Part shown: in pieces, positions 11,162-20,981 of the stretch
How positions within the stretch are numbered: position 1 is the stretch's first letter
How the letters are laid out: each line of letters opens with the position of its first letter
Assembly: GCF_000153045.1 (NCBI RefSeq)
Contig: NZ_CH724160.1
Coordinates: 311,142 to 375,141, forward strand
Length of the DNA stretch: 64,000 nt
From: Synechococcus sp. WH 5701
Lineage (GTDB): Bacteria; Cyanobacteriota; Cyanobacteriia; PCC-6307; Cyanobiaceae
Direction: 5' to 3'
Notes under the pieces: generated by a model
Databases searched by the model: none
The model's input: the letters and a program-made list of their open reading frames with translations, nothing else
Told to the model about the DNA's origin: nothing
Position numbers and translations under genes: made by a program

Positions 11162-12436
11162 TCAGGTGCTGGAGGTCTGCAGGGCTGGGAGTGCCTCCAG
11201 ATCCGTGATGGCGGCCATGCTCTCGGCGGAGAACATGCGGCGGCCCTCCAGCTGCCAGTGCTCGTGCTGCTCCAGCAGCACCGCGCCCACCAGGCGGGTG
11301 ATGGCGGCATCGTTGGGGAAGATGCCGACGACGCGGGTGCGGCGTTTGATCTCCTCATTCACCCGCTCCAGCAGGTTGGTGCTCCAGACCTTGCGCCAGT
11401 GCTGCTGCGGGAAGTGGCGGAAGGCCAGCACGTCCTCCCGGGCCTCGTGCATCAGCTCAGCGGCTTTGGGAAAGCGCTCGATCAACGAGGCGGCCAGGTC
11501 ATCCCAGCGGCTGAGGATCTCGCCGGCGTTCTCCTGGGCGAACACACTGCGCAGGGCAGCGGTGACCATGCCCTGGTGGGCTACTCCTGCGGAGAAGGCT
11601 GCGCCTATGGGGACGCGCTGCAACAGGTTTCTGGCGAAATGAACGCGACAGCGCTGCCAGACGCAACCCTGCAGCTGCCTGCGGATCGCCTTGGTGAGCC
11701 CCACGTGGGCGTCGGAGATCACCAGTTTGACCCCAGTGAGGCCACGCTCTACTGCTTCGCAGAAGCCTGCGGCTATGAGCGAGGCAAGGAACTCACTCCA
11801 GAAGCCCTCAGTCTCACTGTCGCCCACCTTGAGGCCCAGCAACTCCCGGCGGCCATCGACATTGACGCCCATGGCGACGACCACGGCCCGAGAGCAGACC
11901 TGCAGAGCCTTGCCGAGCCGGCCCTTGAGGTAAGTGGCATCCAGGTAGACGTAGGCGTAGCCAGACTCCTGCAGCGGCCGGCTCAGGAACGCCTGCACCT
12001 GCTGGTCGATCTCCTGGCAGATCCGGCTCACCTGCGACTTGGAGATGCCGCTCTGGGAGCCCAGCGCCCCCACCAGGGCATCGAGCTTTCGGGTGGAAAC
12101 GCCGCCGATGTAGGCCTCCATGATCACGGCGTAGAGAGCCTGGTCGACCCGCCGGCGGGGCTCAAGGATCGAGGGCAGGAAGCTACCGGCCCGCAACTTG
12201 GGGATCAGCAGGTCGATGTCGCCCACCTGGGTGGTGAGGCTGCGAGACCGGTAGCCGTTGCGGTAGCCGAGCCGCTCCTCACTGCGCTCATGGAGGTCGG
12301 CACCCAGAACGGCGGCAGCCTCCAGCTCGATCAGCTGCTGCAGACCGTGCCGGGCCAGCTCGGGGATCAACTCCCCGGCTTTGCTGCCATCCAGTAGCGA
12401 TGCCAGGGCAGAGGCGTCAGAATCTCGCTTGGGCAT
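11162..12436 (-). CDS. IS256 family (Mutator-type) transposase
   Basis: The protein of about 424 residues is a full-length IS256-type DDE transposase. The first catalytic aspartate lies in YVYLDATYLKG, the second in KLVISDAHVGLTKA, and the glutamate in STNLLERVNEEIKRR, which is also the family signature. The ATG at 12436 gives the usual MPKRDSD-type start; an upstream extension lacks family character. The frame is intact, so the protein may be functional. I could not identify terminal inverted repeats or a target duplication, so the element limits are open. Confidence 0.92.
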   Translation of the reverse strand: MPKRDSDASALASLLDGSKAGELIPELARHGLQQLIELEAAAVLGADLHERSEERLGYRNGYRSRSLTTQVGDIDLLIPKLRAGSFLPSILEPRRRVDQALYAVIMEAYIGGVSTRKLDALVGALGSQSGISKSQVSRICQEIDQQVQAFLSRPLQESGYAYVYLDATYLKGRLGKALQVCSRAVVVAMGVNVDGRRELLGLKVGDSETEGFWSEFLASLIAAGFCEAVERGLTGVKLVISDAHVGLTKAIRRQLQGCVWQRCRVHFARNLLQRVPIGAAFSAGVAHQGMVTAALRSVFAQENAGEILSRWDDLAASLIERFPKAAELMHEAREDVLAFRHFPQQHWRKVWSTNLLERVNEEIKRRTRVVGIFPNDAAITRLVGAVLLEQHEHWQLEGRRMFSAESMAAITDLEALPALQTSST

Positions 12437-12576
12437 GGTTCGTCTGGTTGAGGTGGTACTCGAACCAGGGAAACGGGCCTGCCCACACCTCACATCGCCA
12501 GCCGTGGAGCCGATCGCCTGAGGAGCGTGGCTCGCAATTGCCTGTAGGTTAAAGGATTCTGTCTCCAATCTGAACA

Positions 12577-12858
12577 ATGACGGCATCAGCACGGTTGCTG
12601 GCCATCGCAGTTATCAGCTGCGGAACACTCGCCTGCTTCCCTTATGGAGCCAGTGCGCAGAACATGGAAGACGATCTGATTATGCATTACTGCACCAATG
12701 CCGTGAATGCTGAAGTTGCCCTCTCTGGTAAACCAGCTCCAGCTGGTCTGGCCACGTACACATGTCGTTGCGTGGTCAATCAGGTGAACCAACGCGTAAG
12801 CATCAGCAATGCCAAGACAATCTGCAAGCAGCAGGCTGCCACCAAGTACGGCCTCTGA
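12577..12858 (+). CDS. Small secreted cysteine-containing protein
   Basis: The 93-residue protein has a signal peptide (LLAIAVISCGTLACFPYG, probable cleavage after ASAQ) and a short mature part with three cysteines (HYCTNAV, YTCRCVVNQV) plus KTICKQQAATKYG near the end, so disulfides are likely after export. It starts just beyond the transposase region and is divergent from it. Small secreted proteins of this type are common and uncharacterised in Synechococcus-like genomes. No family name can be given. Confidence 0.65.
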   Translation: MTASARLLAIAVISCGTLACFPYGASAQNMEDDLIMHYCTNAVNAEVALSGKPAPAGLATYTCRCVVNQVNQRVSISNAKTICKQQAATKYGL

Positions 12859-14929: not shown

Positions 14930-15022
14930 TTCAAACGCGAGGGGAGGTTGGCGAAGGAGCCATGGTCAGAGGCTTTCGTCCATACTCTCAGGCTCTTGGA
15001 TACACCCCCCGGCGGAGACTTC

Positions 15023-16021
15023 ATGCCCCTGCGCCTGCTGGCCACGACCCTTCTCATCCTGGGTTTGCTGATTCAGCCGCTTGAGGCGGATGCCGTGCAG
15101 GCCCCTCCTTCCTGCCAGGCAGGCATGGAATGGATCCCCGGCGGCACGTTCCGCATGGGGTCGGATGATCACTACCCCGATGAGCTCTCAGCCGATGCGG
15201 TGACGGTGGAGGGTTTCTGCATCGACCGCCATGAAGTCACCAATGCCGAGTTCGATGCATTCGTGACGGACACGGGCTATGTCACCGTCGCGGAACGGCC
15301 GATCCCCAAGGATCAGTACCCCGACCTGGCTGAGGATCAGCGGGCACCGGGTGCCCTGGTCTTTGCCATGCCCCCTGCAGGAACCAAGGTCACCGAGGTC
15401 TCCTACCTGAGCTGGTGGCACTGGACTCCCGGGGCAAACTGGCGGCATCCGCAGGGCCCCGAAAGCGATCTGGAAGGCCTGGCCAACCATCCCGTCGTAC
15501 AGGTCGCCTTCAGGGATGCCGAGGCCTATGCGGCCTGGGCCGGCAAAGAGCTTCCCACCGAGGCCCAGTGGGAATTCGCCGCCAGGGGCGGCCTCAAGGA
15601 TCAGATCTTCAGCTGGGGGAAAACCTATTCAGCGAAGAAGGCCAACACCTGGCAAGGGGAGTTCCCCATCCACAACCAGGAGAAGGATGGCTACTTCGGC
15701 ACAGCCCCGGTTGGGAGCTTTCCGCCCAACGGCTACGGGCTCCAGGACATGACCGGCAACGTCTGGGAATGGACGCAGGACTGGTACCGACCCGGCCACC
15801 AGGGCATGGCCGATCATGTCAATCCAGCTGTGACAGAGCAGGAGCTGAGCTTCGATCCCCGCGAGCCTGGCATCGCCAAGCACGTGATCAAGGGTGGTTC
15901 CTTCCTCTGTGCGAAGAACTATTGCAGCCGTTACCGCCCGGCGGCCCGGGAGGCCCTCGAACCGGATACAGGCACGTCCCATATCGGCTTTCGACTGGTC
16001 ACCAGCCCCACTGAGGGGTAG
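15023..16021 (+). CDS. Formylglycine-generating enzyme (sulfatase-activating)
   Basis: FGE oxidises a cysteine in newly made sulfatases to C-alpha-formylglycine, which the sulfatase needs for catalysis. The protein of about 332 residues has a signal peptide (LLATTLLILGLLIQPL) and the FGE-sulfatase domain from CQAGMEWIPGGTFRMGSD onward, with NEYEVTN-type and TGNVWEWTQDW motifs. Near the end, GGSFLCAKNYCSRYRPAAR keeps both catalytic cysteines (296 and 301), as in true FGEs and unlike many domain relatives. The ATG at 15023 is preceded by GGAG. It lies directly upstream of the two sulfatase genes, its expected clients, and the exported location matches the lipobox of the first. Confidence 0.92.
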   Translation: MPLRLLATTLLILGLLIQPLEADAVQAPPSCQAGMEWIPGGTFRMGSDDHYPDELSADAVTVEGFCIDRHEVTNAEFDAFVTDTGYVTVAERPIPKDQYPDLAEDQRAPGALVFAMPPAGTKVTEVSYLSWWHWTPGANWRHPQGPESDLEGLANHPVVQVAFRDAEAYAAWAGKELPTEAQWEFAARGGLKDQIFSWGKTYSAKKANTWQGEFPIHNQEKDGYFGTAPVGSFPPNGYGLQDMTGNVWEWTQDWYRPGHQGMADHVNPAVTEQELSFDPREPGIAKHVIKGGSFLCAKNYCSRYRPAAREALEPDTGTSHIGFRLVTSPTEG

Positions 16022-16167
16022 TCGTTGCGACTCAGCTGGGCACGCCTGCTCAATTCGGGCAAAAAAGTCAGCTCCTCGGCCTCCTCCCCGCCATTTCTTG
16101 GAACTATGGATTCTTACCTGCGCTCCCGTCAGGGGTCGCGGCCCACTTCAGGTCCCAGGCTCGGCGC

Positions 16168-17972
16168 ATGGCCCCACTCGCACCAACGATCCGTCGGCTG
16201 ACCAGCCTGCTGCTGGCGCTGTTCTTGAGTGTTGCCCTGGTGGCCTGCGGCGCGAAAGGCCCAGACCTCAACAAGGCCTCCGCGAACCCCACGGCGATGC
16301 CCACCGGTCAGCCAGTGGCGCGGCCGATGGGCATGCCCACCGAGAAATTCGCCAACAAGCCCAACATTCTCTTCATCATGGGCGATGACATCGGCTGGAT
16401 GCAGCCGGGGGTCTACCACCGCGGCCTGATGGTGGGTGAAACCCCCAACATCGACCGGATCGGCAAAGAGGGCGCGATCTTCATGGATTACGTGGCCATG
16501 CAGAGCTGCACCTCGGGCCGCAATGCGTTCTTCACGGGCATGTACCCCCTGCGAACCGGCATGATCCCGCCCCAGCTGCCCGGCAGCCCCACTTACCTCA
16601 AGCCAGGAACGCCCGCACTGGCTAAGTTCCTTCGCGATCAGGGCTACACCACGGGAGAATTCGGCAAGAATCACCTGGGTGACCACACCGCCTCACTGCC
16701 CACGGCCCACGGTTTCGAGGAGTACTGGGGCTACCTGTATCACCTCGATGCCATGCAGCAGGTGAGCTTCCCCGACATCAACAGCTCGCCGACGCAACAG
16801 GCGATGCGCCCCCTTGCCAGAACACTCCTGTACCTGGGCTTCCTGCCGTGGCCGGTGCGGTGGATCCCAAGTCCACAACCTGCCTCACCCCGCCCCGCCC
16901 GGTGATCTGGTGCACGTCGTCCGACGGCACAGAAAAGAACCAGAGCTGCAAGGACGAGGGACCGCTGACCCTGGAGCGATCCAAGACCGTGGACGAGGAG
17001 ATCTCAGCCAAGGTGATCGACTTCCTCGACCGCAACGATCCCAAGAAAACCAACAAGCCGTTCTTCGTCTGGTACAACCCGGCCCGGATGCACGTCACCA
17101 CCGTGCTCTCGGACAAATACATGGATATGGTGTCGACAAAGGGCGGCAAGGATTGGGGAGTCAACGAAGCTGGCATGAAGCAGATGGATGACAACATCGG
17201 CTATGTGCTCAAGAAGCTGGATGACATGGGCCAGCTCGACAACACGCTGATCGTCTTCACCACCGACAACGGCGCCGAGAAGATCTCCTTCCCCGACGGC
17301 GGTGTTACCCCCTTCAAGGGCCAGAAGGGCGAAGCCTACGAAGGTGGGTATCGGGCCCCGATGGTGGTCCGCTGGCCCGGCCATATCGAGCCGGGCACCG
17401 TGAAAGACCAGCTGTTCGCCGCCCTGGACTGGGTGCCGACCCTGGTGGATATCGGCGGGGGAGCCAAGGGAGACGCCCTGAAGAAGCAGATCGAAGCCGG
17501 CAACTATCCCGGCATCGTCAAGACCACACTGGATGGCGTCAATCAGCGCGACTATCTCGAAGCCAAGTCTGACAAGTCGGCAAGAGATTATTTCTTCTAT
17601 TACTCCGGGGCCACACCATCAGCCGTGAGGTACAAGAACTGGAAGATGTACTACACCATGTCTGAGCCAGGAGCCGACGGCTGGATCATGCCCCTGATCC
17701 CCTTCCATTGGACACTGGTTCAGAACATCAAGCGCGATCCTTTTGAGCAGGCCGTCGGCGTCGCCCAGGAAACCGCGATGAGCATTGGCGGTGCCTTGGC
17801 CGGTCCGGTCACGGCCTACCAATACGACTGGAATATGTTGCCGATCGGCCAGCAGTTGTGGGAAGAACAGTTGATGTCCTACAAGACGTACCCACCGCTT
17901 CAATCCCCTGCCACCTACAACCTCGACGCAATCTTGGCGAAAGTCAAGGAAGCCGGCCATCCGAGCGAATAA
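16168..17972 (+). pseudogene. Arylsulfatase, frameshifted lipoprotein
   Basis: Two overlapping frames together encode one arylsulfatase of about 600 residues. The first frame (from 16168) has a lipobox leader ending LVACG, the metal-binding start NILFIMGDDIGW, the formylglycine motif SCTSGRNAF with Cys114, and GEFGKNHLGDH. It loses register near 16803-16813, where ATGCG precedes a run of five C. The second frame continues the protein with PPCQNTPVPGLPAVAGAVDP and includes VFTTDNGAEKISFPDGG. One missing base, for example a G after ATG, explains the change. Either the gene is inactive or this is a sequence error. Downstream residues look well preserved, so any loss is recent. Confidence 0.85.
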
Positions 17973-17988
17973 CTGGAGTACCCACACC

Positions 17989-18564
17989 ATGAGCAACATC
18001 ATGAGCGACTCTGATCACGCCTGGGCCCAGCGCTTGAAGACGTCAAGGTCCATGGGGATCCTGATCATCCTGCTGGGGGTGCTGGCCATTGTTTATCCCC
18101 TCTTCGCCACGATCTTCACGTTCAACGTGATCGGCTTCGTGCTGTTGCTGGTGGGGTTCCTGCAGCTGTTCCATGGCGTACAGCTCAGCAAGGGAAAGAC
18201 TGGCCAGCATCTACTGACCATCCTGATAGGCATCTTCTATCTGATCGTTGGCTTCTGGATCCTGCGCCATCCCGTCTTCTCGATCCTGGATCTCACCTTG
18301 GTGATCGGCATTCTCTTCTTCATCCAGGGAGCCATCCAAGTGATCCATGCCTTTGAGGGGAGAGAGGAGCATCGAAAGCTGTTGCTGATCAATGGAATTG
18401 CGGGCATTATTCTTGGCATCCTGATCTGGAGCAACTGGCCTTTCGACTCCCTCAGCCTGCTCGGGCTGCTGGTGGGCATCAATCTGATTCTCTCCGGCGT
18501 CAGCATTCTGAAGACCTTCAGGGCGGATCAGCAAAGCCCCTCGGCTGGCTCAGAATCCACTTGA
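17989..18564 (+). CDS. HdeD family (DUF308) membrane protein
   Basis: The 191-residue protein has six hydrophobic helices in paired repeats (ILIILLGVLAIVYPLFATIF; ILIGIFYLIVGFWILRHP; GIAGIILGILIWSNWP), the hallmark of HdeD/DUF308 proteins, first named for acid resistance in Escherichia coli. It begins 16 bases after the sulfatase and is probably cotranscribed. HdeD-like genes beside arylsulfatases may help tolerate acid released by ester hydrolysis, but that is inference. A glutamine/serine-rich tail follows the last helix. Confidence 0.8.
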   Translation: MSNIMSDSDHAWAQRLKTSRSMGILIILLGVLAIVYPLFATIFTFNVIGFVLLLVGFLQLFHGVQLSKGKTGQHLLTILIGIFYLIVGFWILRHPVFSILDLTLVIGILFFIQGAIQVIHAFEGREEHRKLLLINGIAGIILGILIWSNWPFDSLSLLGLLVGINLILSGVSILKTFRADQQSPSAGSEST

Positions 18565-18604
18565 CGTCTATGACTGATTCGGATCTGCAACGGCTTTAAG
18601 GTCG

Positions 18605-19675
18605 ATGAGCTATTCATCGACGATGCCACTGAGGCGCAGAACCATCATTCAGTCGCTGGGCACGCTGCTCTGCGCCACACTGCTGGCCGTTGTCTTTGGC
18701 CTGCCAGGAGTTTCTGCCAAGCCGCTGGATCCGCTGCCTTCCTGGAACCCTGGGGCTGCAAAAGACAGCATCCTCACCTTTGTCTCCCAGACCACCGATC
18801 CCAGCAGTCCTGAATTCGTTCCTGCAGAGAAGCGCATCGCCACCTTCGACCAGGACGGCACCCTCTGGGTGGAACACCCGATGTACACGCAAGTGATGTA
18901 CATCCTCGAACGGGTGCCTGAGCTGGTGAAAGCCAAGCCTGAGCTGGCCCGGGAGAAACCCTACGCCACCGTGCTCTCTGGGCTGTCCGGTGACAGAACG
19001 AGTCTGGAGAGCCTGACGGTGCCGGATCTTGAGAAACTGGCAGCCGCCACCCTCACCGGAATGCCGCTTGACACCTTCAATCAAGAGGTGAAACGTTGGC
19101 TCGCCACGGCGAAACATCCACGCTGGAAACGCCCCTACACCGAGCTCACCTATCAGCCGATGCAGGAGCTGCTCAAGCTGCTGCGCGCGAAGGGCTATCG
19201 CACCTACATCGCCACGGGTGGTGGCCAGGATTTTGTGCGTGTCTACGCGGAGGAGGTCTATGGAATCCCCCCTGAACAGGTGATCGGCACGGCCGGCAGC
19301 ACCCGCTACGGCTACACCAGCACGGGCAAGCCCTTTCTCACCAAGGAACCCAAGCTTCTGCTCGACAACAACAACGCTGGTAAGCCCGAGGGCATCCATC
19401 TGATGATCGGTCGCCGGCCCACGGCGGCATTCGGGAATTCCACCGGCGATCGGCAGATGCTCGAATACGCCAAGGCAGGGGGAGAAGCCAACCTGGCGAT
19501 GATCGTGCTGCACGATGATGCCAGCAGGGAGTATGCCTATGGCCCAGCCCAGGGGCTGCCGGACACCAAGGTGGGCACCTTCACCCAGGAGCTCTACGAC
19601 GAAGCCAAGCAGCAGGGATGGGTGGTGATCAGCATGAAGAACGACTGGAAACAGATCTTCTCGTTTGCGCGTTAG
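18605..19675 (+). CDS. Exported HAD-superfamily phosphatase
   Basis: The 356-residue protein begins with an arginine-rich signal peptide (PLRRRTIIQSLGTLL, cleavage near VSAKP). HAD motif I is in IATFDQDGTLWVEHP, motif II in RTYIATGGGQDFV, and motif IV in AFGNSTGDRQML, all consistent with an active phosphohydrolase resembling exported nonspecific acid phosphatases. It follows the HdeD-like gene closely and belongs to the sulfatase island. A decayed copy of its 3' end lies at 20840-20981, beyond the AraC gene. The substrate is unknown; a phosphate ester is likely. Confidence 0.85.
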   Translation: MSYSSTMPLRRRTIIQSLGTLLCATLLAVVFGLPGVSAKPLDPLPSWNPGAAKDSILTFVSQTTDPSSPEFVPAEKRIATFDQDGTLWVEHPMYTQVMYILERVPELVKAKPELAREKPYATVLSGLSGDRTSLESLTVPDLEKLAAATLTGMPLDTFNQEVKRWLATAKHPRWKRPYTELTYQPMQELLKLLRAKGYRTYIATGGGQDFVRVYAEEVYGIPPEQVIGTAGSTRYGYTSTGKPFLTKEPKLLLDNNNAGKPEGIHLMIGRRPTAAFGNSTGDRQMLEYAKAGGEANLAMIVLHDDASREYAYGPAQGLPDTKVGTFTQELYDEAKQQGWVVISMKNDWKQIFSFAR

Positions 19676-19812: not shown

Positions 19813-20826
19813 ATGCCTCCCCTGCTGACCATTGACAGCGTCGAGTGCCTGCAGGCCAGGCTGGACGCCCTCGGCCTGTCCCTGAAGATCACTCAGCTCG
19901 CCGGGGGTGAGCTGAGCGGAACTTTGCTGCCCCTGCTGCTGGGTCCGCTGCGGCTGCTGCGCATCCGGGTCGACAGGTCGGTTCACTGTGCCGGCCCCAA
20001 GCCGCGTGGCAGCCAAATTGTGGCGATGGATCTGGACAGGGATCTGGACGGCGATGTGACCTCGCCAGCCCTGATGCGCAGCCATGGCCAGCCGCTGTTG
20101 CCCAGGGCCCTGTTCGGGCTCTCCTGCGCCGGCGAGGTCCATCTGACCACCTTTGGCCCGTGCGACATGGCCCTGCTGCTGATCCATCGGGAGGAGTTCC
20201 TCCATCGGGCCGACCGGCTCGGCTGCTCCGTGCTGGAGCAGGTCCTGCCCCGCAACTGGCTCACCCTGGATCCAGGCCGGTTTGCGCGGTTGCGGCGCTA
20301 CCTGCACCAGCTCTTCTCGACGCTCGAGACCGATCCCACCCTGCAACAGGTGGCTGGTTTCGACGAGCTGGTGAGCAACGATCTGATCCCTTTGATGCTG
20401 GAAGCCCTGATCCATGGCGGGCATGCCGGCGACAGCCTGCCCCGGGCCCCTTCGCGGATCGAGCTGGTGAAGGCGGCCCAGCGGTGGATGGAAGCCCATC
20501 CCAGACAGCCCATTCACCTGGAGGGCCTCTGCCGAGAGGTGCACACCAGCCGGCGGAGCCTGATTCAGGGATTCCGGGAGCACCTGGGGATGGGTCCGAT
20601 GACCTATCTGCGGCTTCATCGCCTGCACGGCATCCGCCAGGAACTGCTGGGGGCCGATCCAAGCCAGATGACGATCGGCTCCCGTGCCGCCGCATGGGGC
20701 TTTCTCAACCCGGGGCACTTCGCCCGGCAGTACGCCAACCTCTTCGGTGAGCAGCCCTCCGAAACTGTTGGCCGGCTCCGATCTTTACCTGGGTTGCTTC
20801 TCGATCGCCCCTCTCCTCCCGAGTAG
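19813..20826 (+). CDS. AraC family transcriptional regulator
   Basis: The 337-residue protein has a poorly conserved N-terminal sensing region and a C-terminal AraC DNA-binding domain with two helix-turn-helix units. The first is around residues 235-255 (IHLEGLCREVHTSRRSLIQG). The second follows FREHLGMGPMTYLRLHRLHG and contains WGFLNPGHFARQYANLFGEQ. The overall plan fits regulators similar to EutR/OruR-type AraC proteins. Its place between the two sulfatase blocks makes it a candidate local regulator. The effector cannot be inferred. Confidence 0.87.
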   Translation: MPPLLTIDSVECLQARLDALGLSLKITQLAGGELSGTLLPLLLGPLRLLRIRVDRSVHCAGPKPRGSQIVAMDLDRDLDGDVTSPALMRSHGQPLLPRALFGLSCAGEVHLTTFGPCDMALLLIHREEFLHRADRLGCSVLEQVLPRNWLTLDPGRFARLRRYLHQLFSTLETDPTLQQVAGFDELVSNDLIPLMLEALIHGGHAGDSLPRAPSRIELVKAAQRWMEAHPRQPIHLEGLCREVHTSRRSLIQGFREHLGMGPMTYLRLHRLHGIRQELLGADPSQMTIGSRAAAWGFLNPGHFARQYANLFGEQPSETVGRLRSLPGLLLDRPSPPE

Positions 20827-20839
20827 CCGCGTCCTTCGC

Positions 20840-20981
20840 CATGATCGGCAGATGCTGGAATACACCAAGGCAGGGGGAGAAGCCAACTTGGCGATGATCG
20901 TGCGGCACGATGATGCCAGGCAGCAGGGATCGATCGTGATCAGCATGAAGATCGACTGAAAACAGATCTTCTCGTTTGAGC
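20840..20981 (+). pseudogene. Decayed duplicate of the HAD phosphatase 3' end
   Basis: This stretch repeats the end of the gene at 18605-19675. HDRQMLEYTKAGGEANLAMI matches GDRQMLEYAKAGGEANLAMI, and DDARQQGSIVISMKID matches separate parts of the intact C-terminus. About 29 codons between DDA and the QQG motif are missing, and the intact Trp codon TGG is TGA here, although KQIFSF continues after the stop. It begins 14 bases after the AraC stop. It shows that a second HAD copy once stood upstream of the second sulfatase. Confidence 0.85.

Follow-up and report, generated by a model that had tools for sequence, protein, structure and literature searches.

A one-base frame break in a sulfatase gene of Synechococcus sp. 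WH 5701, probably an error in the assembled sequence

A sulfatase gene divided between two frames

The window, a stretch of 64,000 nucleotides from the genome of Synechococcus sp. WH 5701, contains on its plus strand a sulfatase-family gene (16168-17972) that starts at the ATG at 16168 and is laid out in two frames that are out of register with each other. ORF A (16168-16905) encodes 245 amino acids and ends at the stop codon at 16903-16905, while the conserved continuation of the protein lies in the next frame, opens with PPCQNTPVPGLP and comprises 387 codons; where this second frame and ORF A overlap, they are out of register. Compared with its relatives, the conserved protein switches between the two frames after about residue 212. 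Specifically, the first frame carries it as far as about 16803 and the other takes it up again from 16809, and the frame switch proposed in the original prediction is therefore real in the sequence. No premature stop interrupts the 387 codons 3' of the break, and this frame is open to its natural end (Table 1).

Table 1. Positions in the window of the two sulfatase parts, the break between them and the adjacent FGE-type gene
Feature	Position	Strand	Basis or remarks
FGE-sulfatase domain gene (PF03781)	15023..16021	+	intact open frame, hydrophobic N-terminus, GGSFLC...YC.RYR motif
First, in-frame sulfatase part	16168..16803	+	PF00884 N-terminal half, CTSGR, lipoprotein-like signal LFLSVALVAC read by eye
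Net one-base loss relative to intact relatives, plus one substitution relative to the Cyanobium orthologue (L009)	16803..16806	+	DNA alignment
Out-of-frame tail of ORF A, up to its stop	16804..16905	+	
C5 run named in the original prediction; of equal length in the intact Cyanobium orthologue (L009), not the site of the loss	16809..16813	+	
Second sulfatase part, in the shifted frame, with TTDNG motif and C-terminal region	16809..17972	+	

Both halves are matched by the Pfam sulfatase profile PF00884, profile positions 1-140 by the first and 126-299 by the second, and their scores of 71.1 and 83.2 bits against a cut-off of 25 place the gene in this family. Sulfatases carry a formylglycine motif of the form C-x-[S/P/A]-x-R, and a motif of this type, CTSGR, is present at residues 114-118 of the first half. 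Across the homologue loci (the best 80 of 201), the same place is occupied by CTSGR in 40, by CTAGR in 39 and by CTS followed by an alignment gap in one. The DNG region of sulfatases, which is metal-binding, lies in the shifted frame, and consequently it is not in the same polypeptide as CTSGR in the assembled sequence; in all of the best 80 of 201 homologue loci, TTDNG was found in a forward frame. The first half also gave an LptM lipoprotein match of 20.5 bits, below the cut-off of 27.7.

The gene that precedes the sulfatase on the same strand, of the FGE type, combines a signal-like hydrophobic N-terminus with the two-cysteine motif GGSFLCAKNYCSRYR, suggesting that a putative exported sulfatase-activating enzyme lies beside an exported sulfatase. 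Among the best 80 of 201 homologue loci, 17 have an FGE match 1.3-1.9 kb upstream of the second half in the same orientation, and 23 have one anywhere in the fetched stretch. Farther downstream, the translation of an ORF at 20684-20959 (DRQMLEYTKAGGEANLAMIV.HDDA) repeats the terminal part of the HAD-like gene (18605-19675), of which this ORF is apparently a partial duplication.

Intact relatives and the exact place of the break

A search with the second half in 149 genomes, including that of the window itself (E <= 1e-60), gave matches in three, all from the same genus: the window's own genome, Cyanobium sp. CZS48M (G007) and Synechococcus sp. RedBA-s (G005). Thus, within the genus the sulfatase is present in the window's own genome and in two of the eight other listed genomes. 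The closest relative found is the intact orthologue in Cyanobium sp. CZS48M (L009; JAUCZK010000015.1), which is 95% and 92% identical at the protein level in the two halves, has the same neighbours as the window (FGE, DUF308 and HAD) and forms one continuous frame, whereas the window is one base short. The locus of Synechococcus sp. RedBA-s is referred to below as L010. Outside the genus, Alphaproteobacteria and a Myxococcaceae MAG supply the nearest homologues (82-84%) among the best 80 of 201; together with the patchy presence within the genus, these homologues hint that the sulfatase region (window 14948-19675) may have been acquired by horizontal transfer.

A scan of genome contigs yielded 201 relatives, and the analysis used the best 80. 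Every one of these 80 loci reads through the junction without a change of frame between the halves, and 77 of them have neither a stop nor a shift anywhere in the compared stretch. The remaining three are broken elsewhere, by a frame change in two (L011, L049) and by one stop in the third (L012). The shift at the junction is private to the window within this set of 80 loci. In the window's own assembly, no second intact allele was found: besides its one full match, the region had a single 114-base match at 72%, and the protein of the second half gave three other matches at 32-46% identity. Viral relatives of the second half were also sought, and while seven stretches fit a pattern, none encoded a relative.

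In the Cyanobium orthologue, the two halves are separated by three bases and share one frame, while in the window they are separated by two bases and are out of frame. The window is therefore one base short, and the proposal that a single base would repair the gene is correct. By contrast, the break had been assigned to the C-run, and this does not hold: the run (16809-16813) has five bases in the window as in the Cyanobium orthologue, and the DNA alignment places the gap 5' of it, beside the substitution at 16803-16806. In L010 the C5 run is absent because a G interrupts it. The break site itself is not a homopolymer. Stretches of at least five C or G abound in the window (187 in 64 kb), so that a C-run near the break is expected by chance and is uninformative.

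Constraint on the gene and other flaws on the contig

Relative to the Cyanobium orthologue, dN/dS (Nei-Gojobori) is 0.095 5' of the break and 0.140 3' of it; the corresponding values for the neighbours are 0.153 for FGE, 0.106 for DUF308, 0.145 for HAD and 0.039 for the second sulfatase (the last over 281 codons). Because coding constraint appears normal on both sides, the break is either very young or absent from the cell. Using L010 as the third sequence, we assigned the changes 3' of the break to branches, which gave the window branch 16 amino-acid changes and 18 synonymous ones, and the Cyanobium branch 9 and 14, respectively. Nine of the 16 amino-acid changes are in the last 35 residues. 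Two residues stand out among the aligned sequences (the window and 79 loci): a Ser at 17133 that is found only in the window, where 79 of 80 sequences have Gly, and a window-only Glu at 17769, where 74 of 80 have Lys. The C-terminal crowding and the two changes at nearly invariant sites could reflect an early relaxation of constraint.

For a census of frame breaks, the 1,068,361-base contig C8 of the window's genome was set against about 1.72 Mb of the Cyanobium sp. CZS48M genome (G007), and a strict filter admitted an ORF only if the sequence on either side of its frame-breaking gap looked coding. As raw counts, five of 468 aligned C8 ORFs had one frame-breaking event each, and two of 451 did in the reverse direction. 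Without the filter, the DNA census gave 48 events with a net change of frame for one direction of comparison and 37 for the other; by our reading of part of the events, these and the events of two earlier censuses were for the most part larger indels, shadow ORFs and non-coding sequence at the upstream end of stop-to-stop ORFs. The strict filter also drops at least one case that we judged to be real, namely one extra base in a G-run of the 1103-aa ORF at C8:203,152. With so low a rate of breaks, and one of similar magnitude in G007, the assembly is not poor overall. We note separately that a minus-strand ORF of 476 aa (window 11162-12592), which we take to be of a transposase-like family, is open in the window, and that the matching copy in contig C15 of G007 is one base short.

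The five C8 events that were kept include the sulfatase, thiC and the gene for sucrose-phosphate synthase, as well as sites near 728 kb and 945 kb. The thiC gene (named by NCBIfam), which is needed by a free-living cyanobacterium and of which this is the sole copy found in the genome, consists of two overlapping out-of-frame pieces with a one-base break (G000:C8:217,294-218,639; L231, L232), and its gap adjoins a substitution, as at the sulfatase. In the sucrose-phosphate synthase gene, a scrambled, homopolymer-rich patch of ~200 bases has ten gaps relative to G007 (G000:C8 about 818,200-818,400, corresponding to L211 about 18,200-18,400; also L233, L234), and despite this patch the gene is 95% identical over the whole alignment; the patch looks like poor sequence in the assembly. 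No other near-identical copy of either gene was found. The breaks in thiC and the sucrose-phosphate synthase gene are hard to accept as biology. It is important to note that these flaws show that errors occur on C8 and not that the sulfatase site is one of them.

Causes of the break

Our working hypothesis is that the sulfatase gene is probably intact in the living cell, where it would be read as an unbroken single frame, and that a sequencing or consensus error would have dropped one base near 16803-16806 of the assembled sequence. Because the flaws in thiC and the sucrose-phosphate synthase gene are on the same contig, we favour such an error over a real null mutation, and we infer that the break in the sulfatase gene shares its cause with the other flaws on the contig. 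According to Antonov et al. (2013; PMC3711429), whose set comprised 1106 genomes complete at that time, BLAST-validated singleton frameshifts are expected to stem from sequencing errors and not from true indels. The sulfatase resembles those singletons in having a shift in mid-gene that is validated by homologues on both sides and is not shared by the relatives examined, and we found nothing that sets it apart from them. A systematic error linked to HIP1 (GCGATCGC) was considered and dropped; the first 400 kb of C8 contain 60 copies of HIP1, and there is none at the site in the closest relative.

It is possible, although less likely in our view, that the break is instead a real and very recent one-base deletion that has inactivated an accessory sulfatase and left a fresh pseudogene with a truncated protein of 245 residues. 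Because the truncated protein retains CTSGR and would be without the TTDNG region, it is predicted not to be an active enzyme. Frame breaks are common in bacterial accessory genes, and because this gene is accessory, as its patchy presence in the genus indicates, and the genome contains further sulfatase-like genes, its loss would be tolerated. That the site is not a homopolymer, on a contig of more than 1 Mb with a low rate of breaks, is likewise in favour of a genuine deletion, as are the larger number of amino-acid changes on the window branch 3' of the break, their concentration near the C-terminus and the two changes at nearly invariant residues. However, the counts of 16 and 9 do not differ significantly (binomial p 0.23; Fisher p 0.60 when the synonymous changes are included), the second part has yet to acquire an early stop, and errors do occur on this contig.

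We also considered explanations in which both frames are translated from the sequence as assembled. Some full-length protein could arise if ribosomes slipped by -1 on the C-run, in a programmed or a tolerated manner: CCC at 16810-16812 would re-pair with CCC at 16809-16811, and reading would enter the conserved frame. The C5 run is well placed for this and both frames are open across it, and as in the -1 frameshifting known from dnaX and transposases, the two frames would be connected by a step of -1. Unlike those systems, the sulfatase has no X_XXY_YYZ heptamer (the zero-frame codons are CGC CCC CTT), no conserved shift, since none of the best 80 of 201 loci is shifted at the junction, and no notable structure: in pseudoknot-free folds the downstream sequence has a z of 0.23, with 114 of 200 shuffles folding at least as well. 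Moreover, the run is also present in the Cyanobium orthologue, where a shift is unneeded and a closely similar fold is predicted (z 1.06); the downstream fold of L010 differs (z -1.29, 22 of 200 shuffles at least as good). With no conserved shift, no heptamer and no structure beyond that of shuffles, slippage on the C-run was rejected and we regard it as very improbable. Equally improbable in our view is a variant in which the cell does carry the break but gets past it at low frequency when the proline tRNA slips by -1 on the C5 run, a lineage-private, non-conserved rescue; by reading of the sequence, the full-length sulfatase would in that case differ from the Cyanobium orthologue at only two residues just before the slip. 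Finally, the two parts might be separate genes, with the second half translated alone from an internal start such as GTG 16848. An ORF from this codon exists, but without the first half the CTSGR motif is missing, and 77 of the best 80 of 201 loci are open in a single frame throughout the compared stretch, which makes this the least credible of the explanations considered, with hardly any probability.

Two of the three causes put forward in the original prediction, namely a new break or an assembly error, agree with the open downstream frame, the normal dN/dS and the other breaks on the contig, while a slippage site at the C-run finds no support, given that the run is not shortened, that all 80 of the best 80 of 201 loci are in frame, that a heptamer is lacking and that folding is no better than in shuffles. 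We conclude that the earlier observation was correct in substance, that its location was slightly off and that its explanation is ordinary. Arylsulfatases of freshwater picocyanobacteria are treated in PMC9361551; in the literature, including that on Cyanobium and sulfatase, no description of the gene or of the break was found among the matches listed.

With a sequence error as the favoured explanation, the main meaning of the break is one of caution about the assembly. If the gene calls of C8 are taken unchanged, the sulfatase, thiC and sucrose-phosphate synthase genes would count as lost or split, and this organism could be wrongly taken for a thiamine auxotroph or for one that has lost sucrose synthesis.
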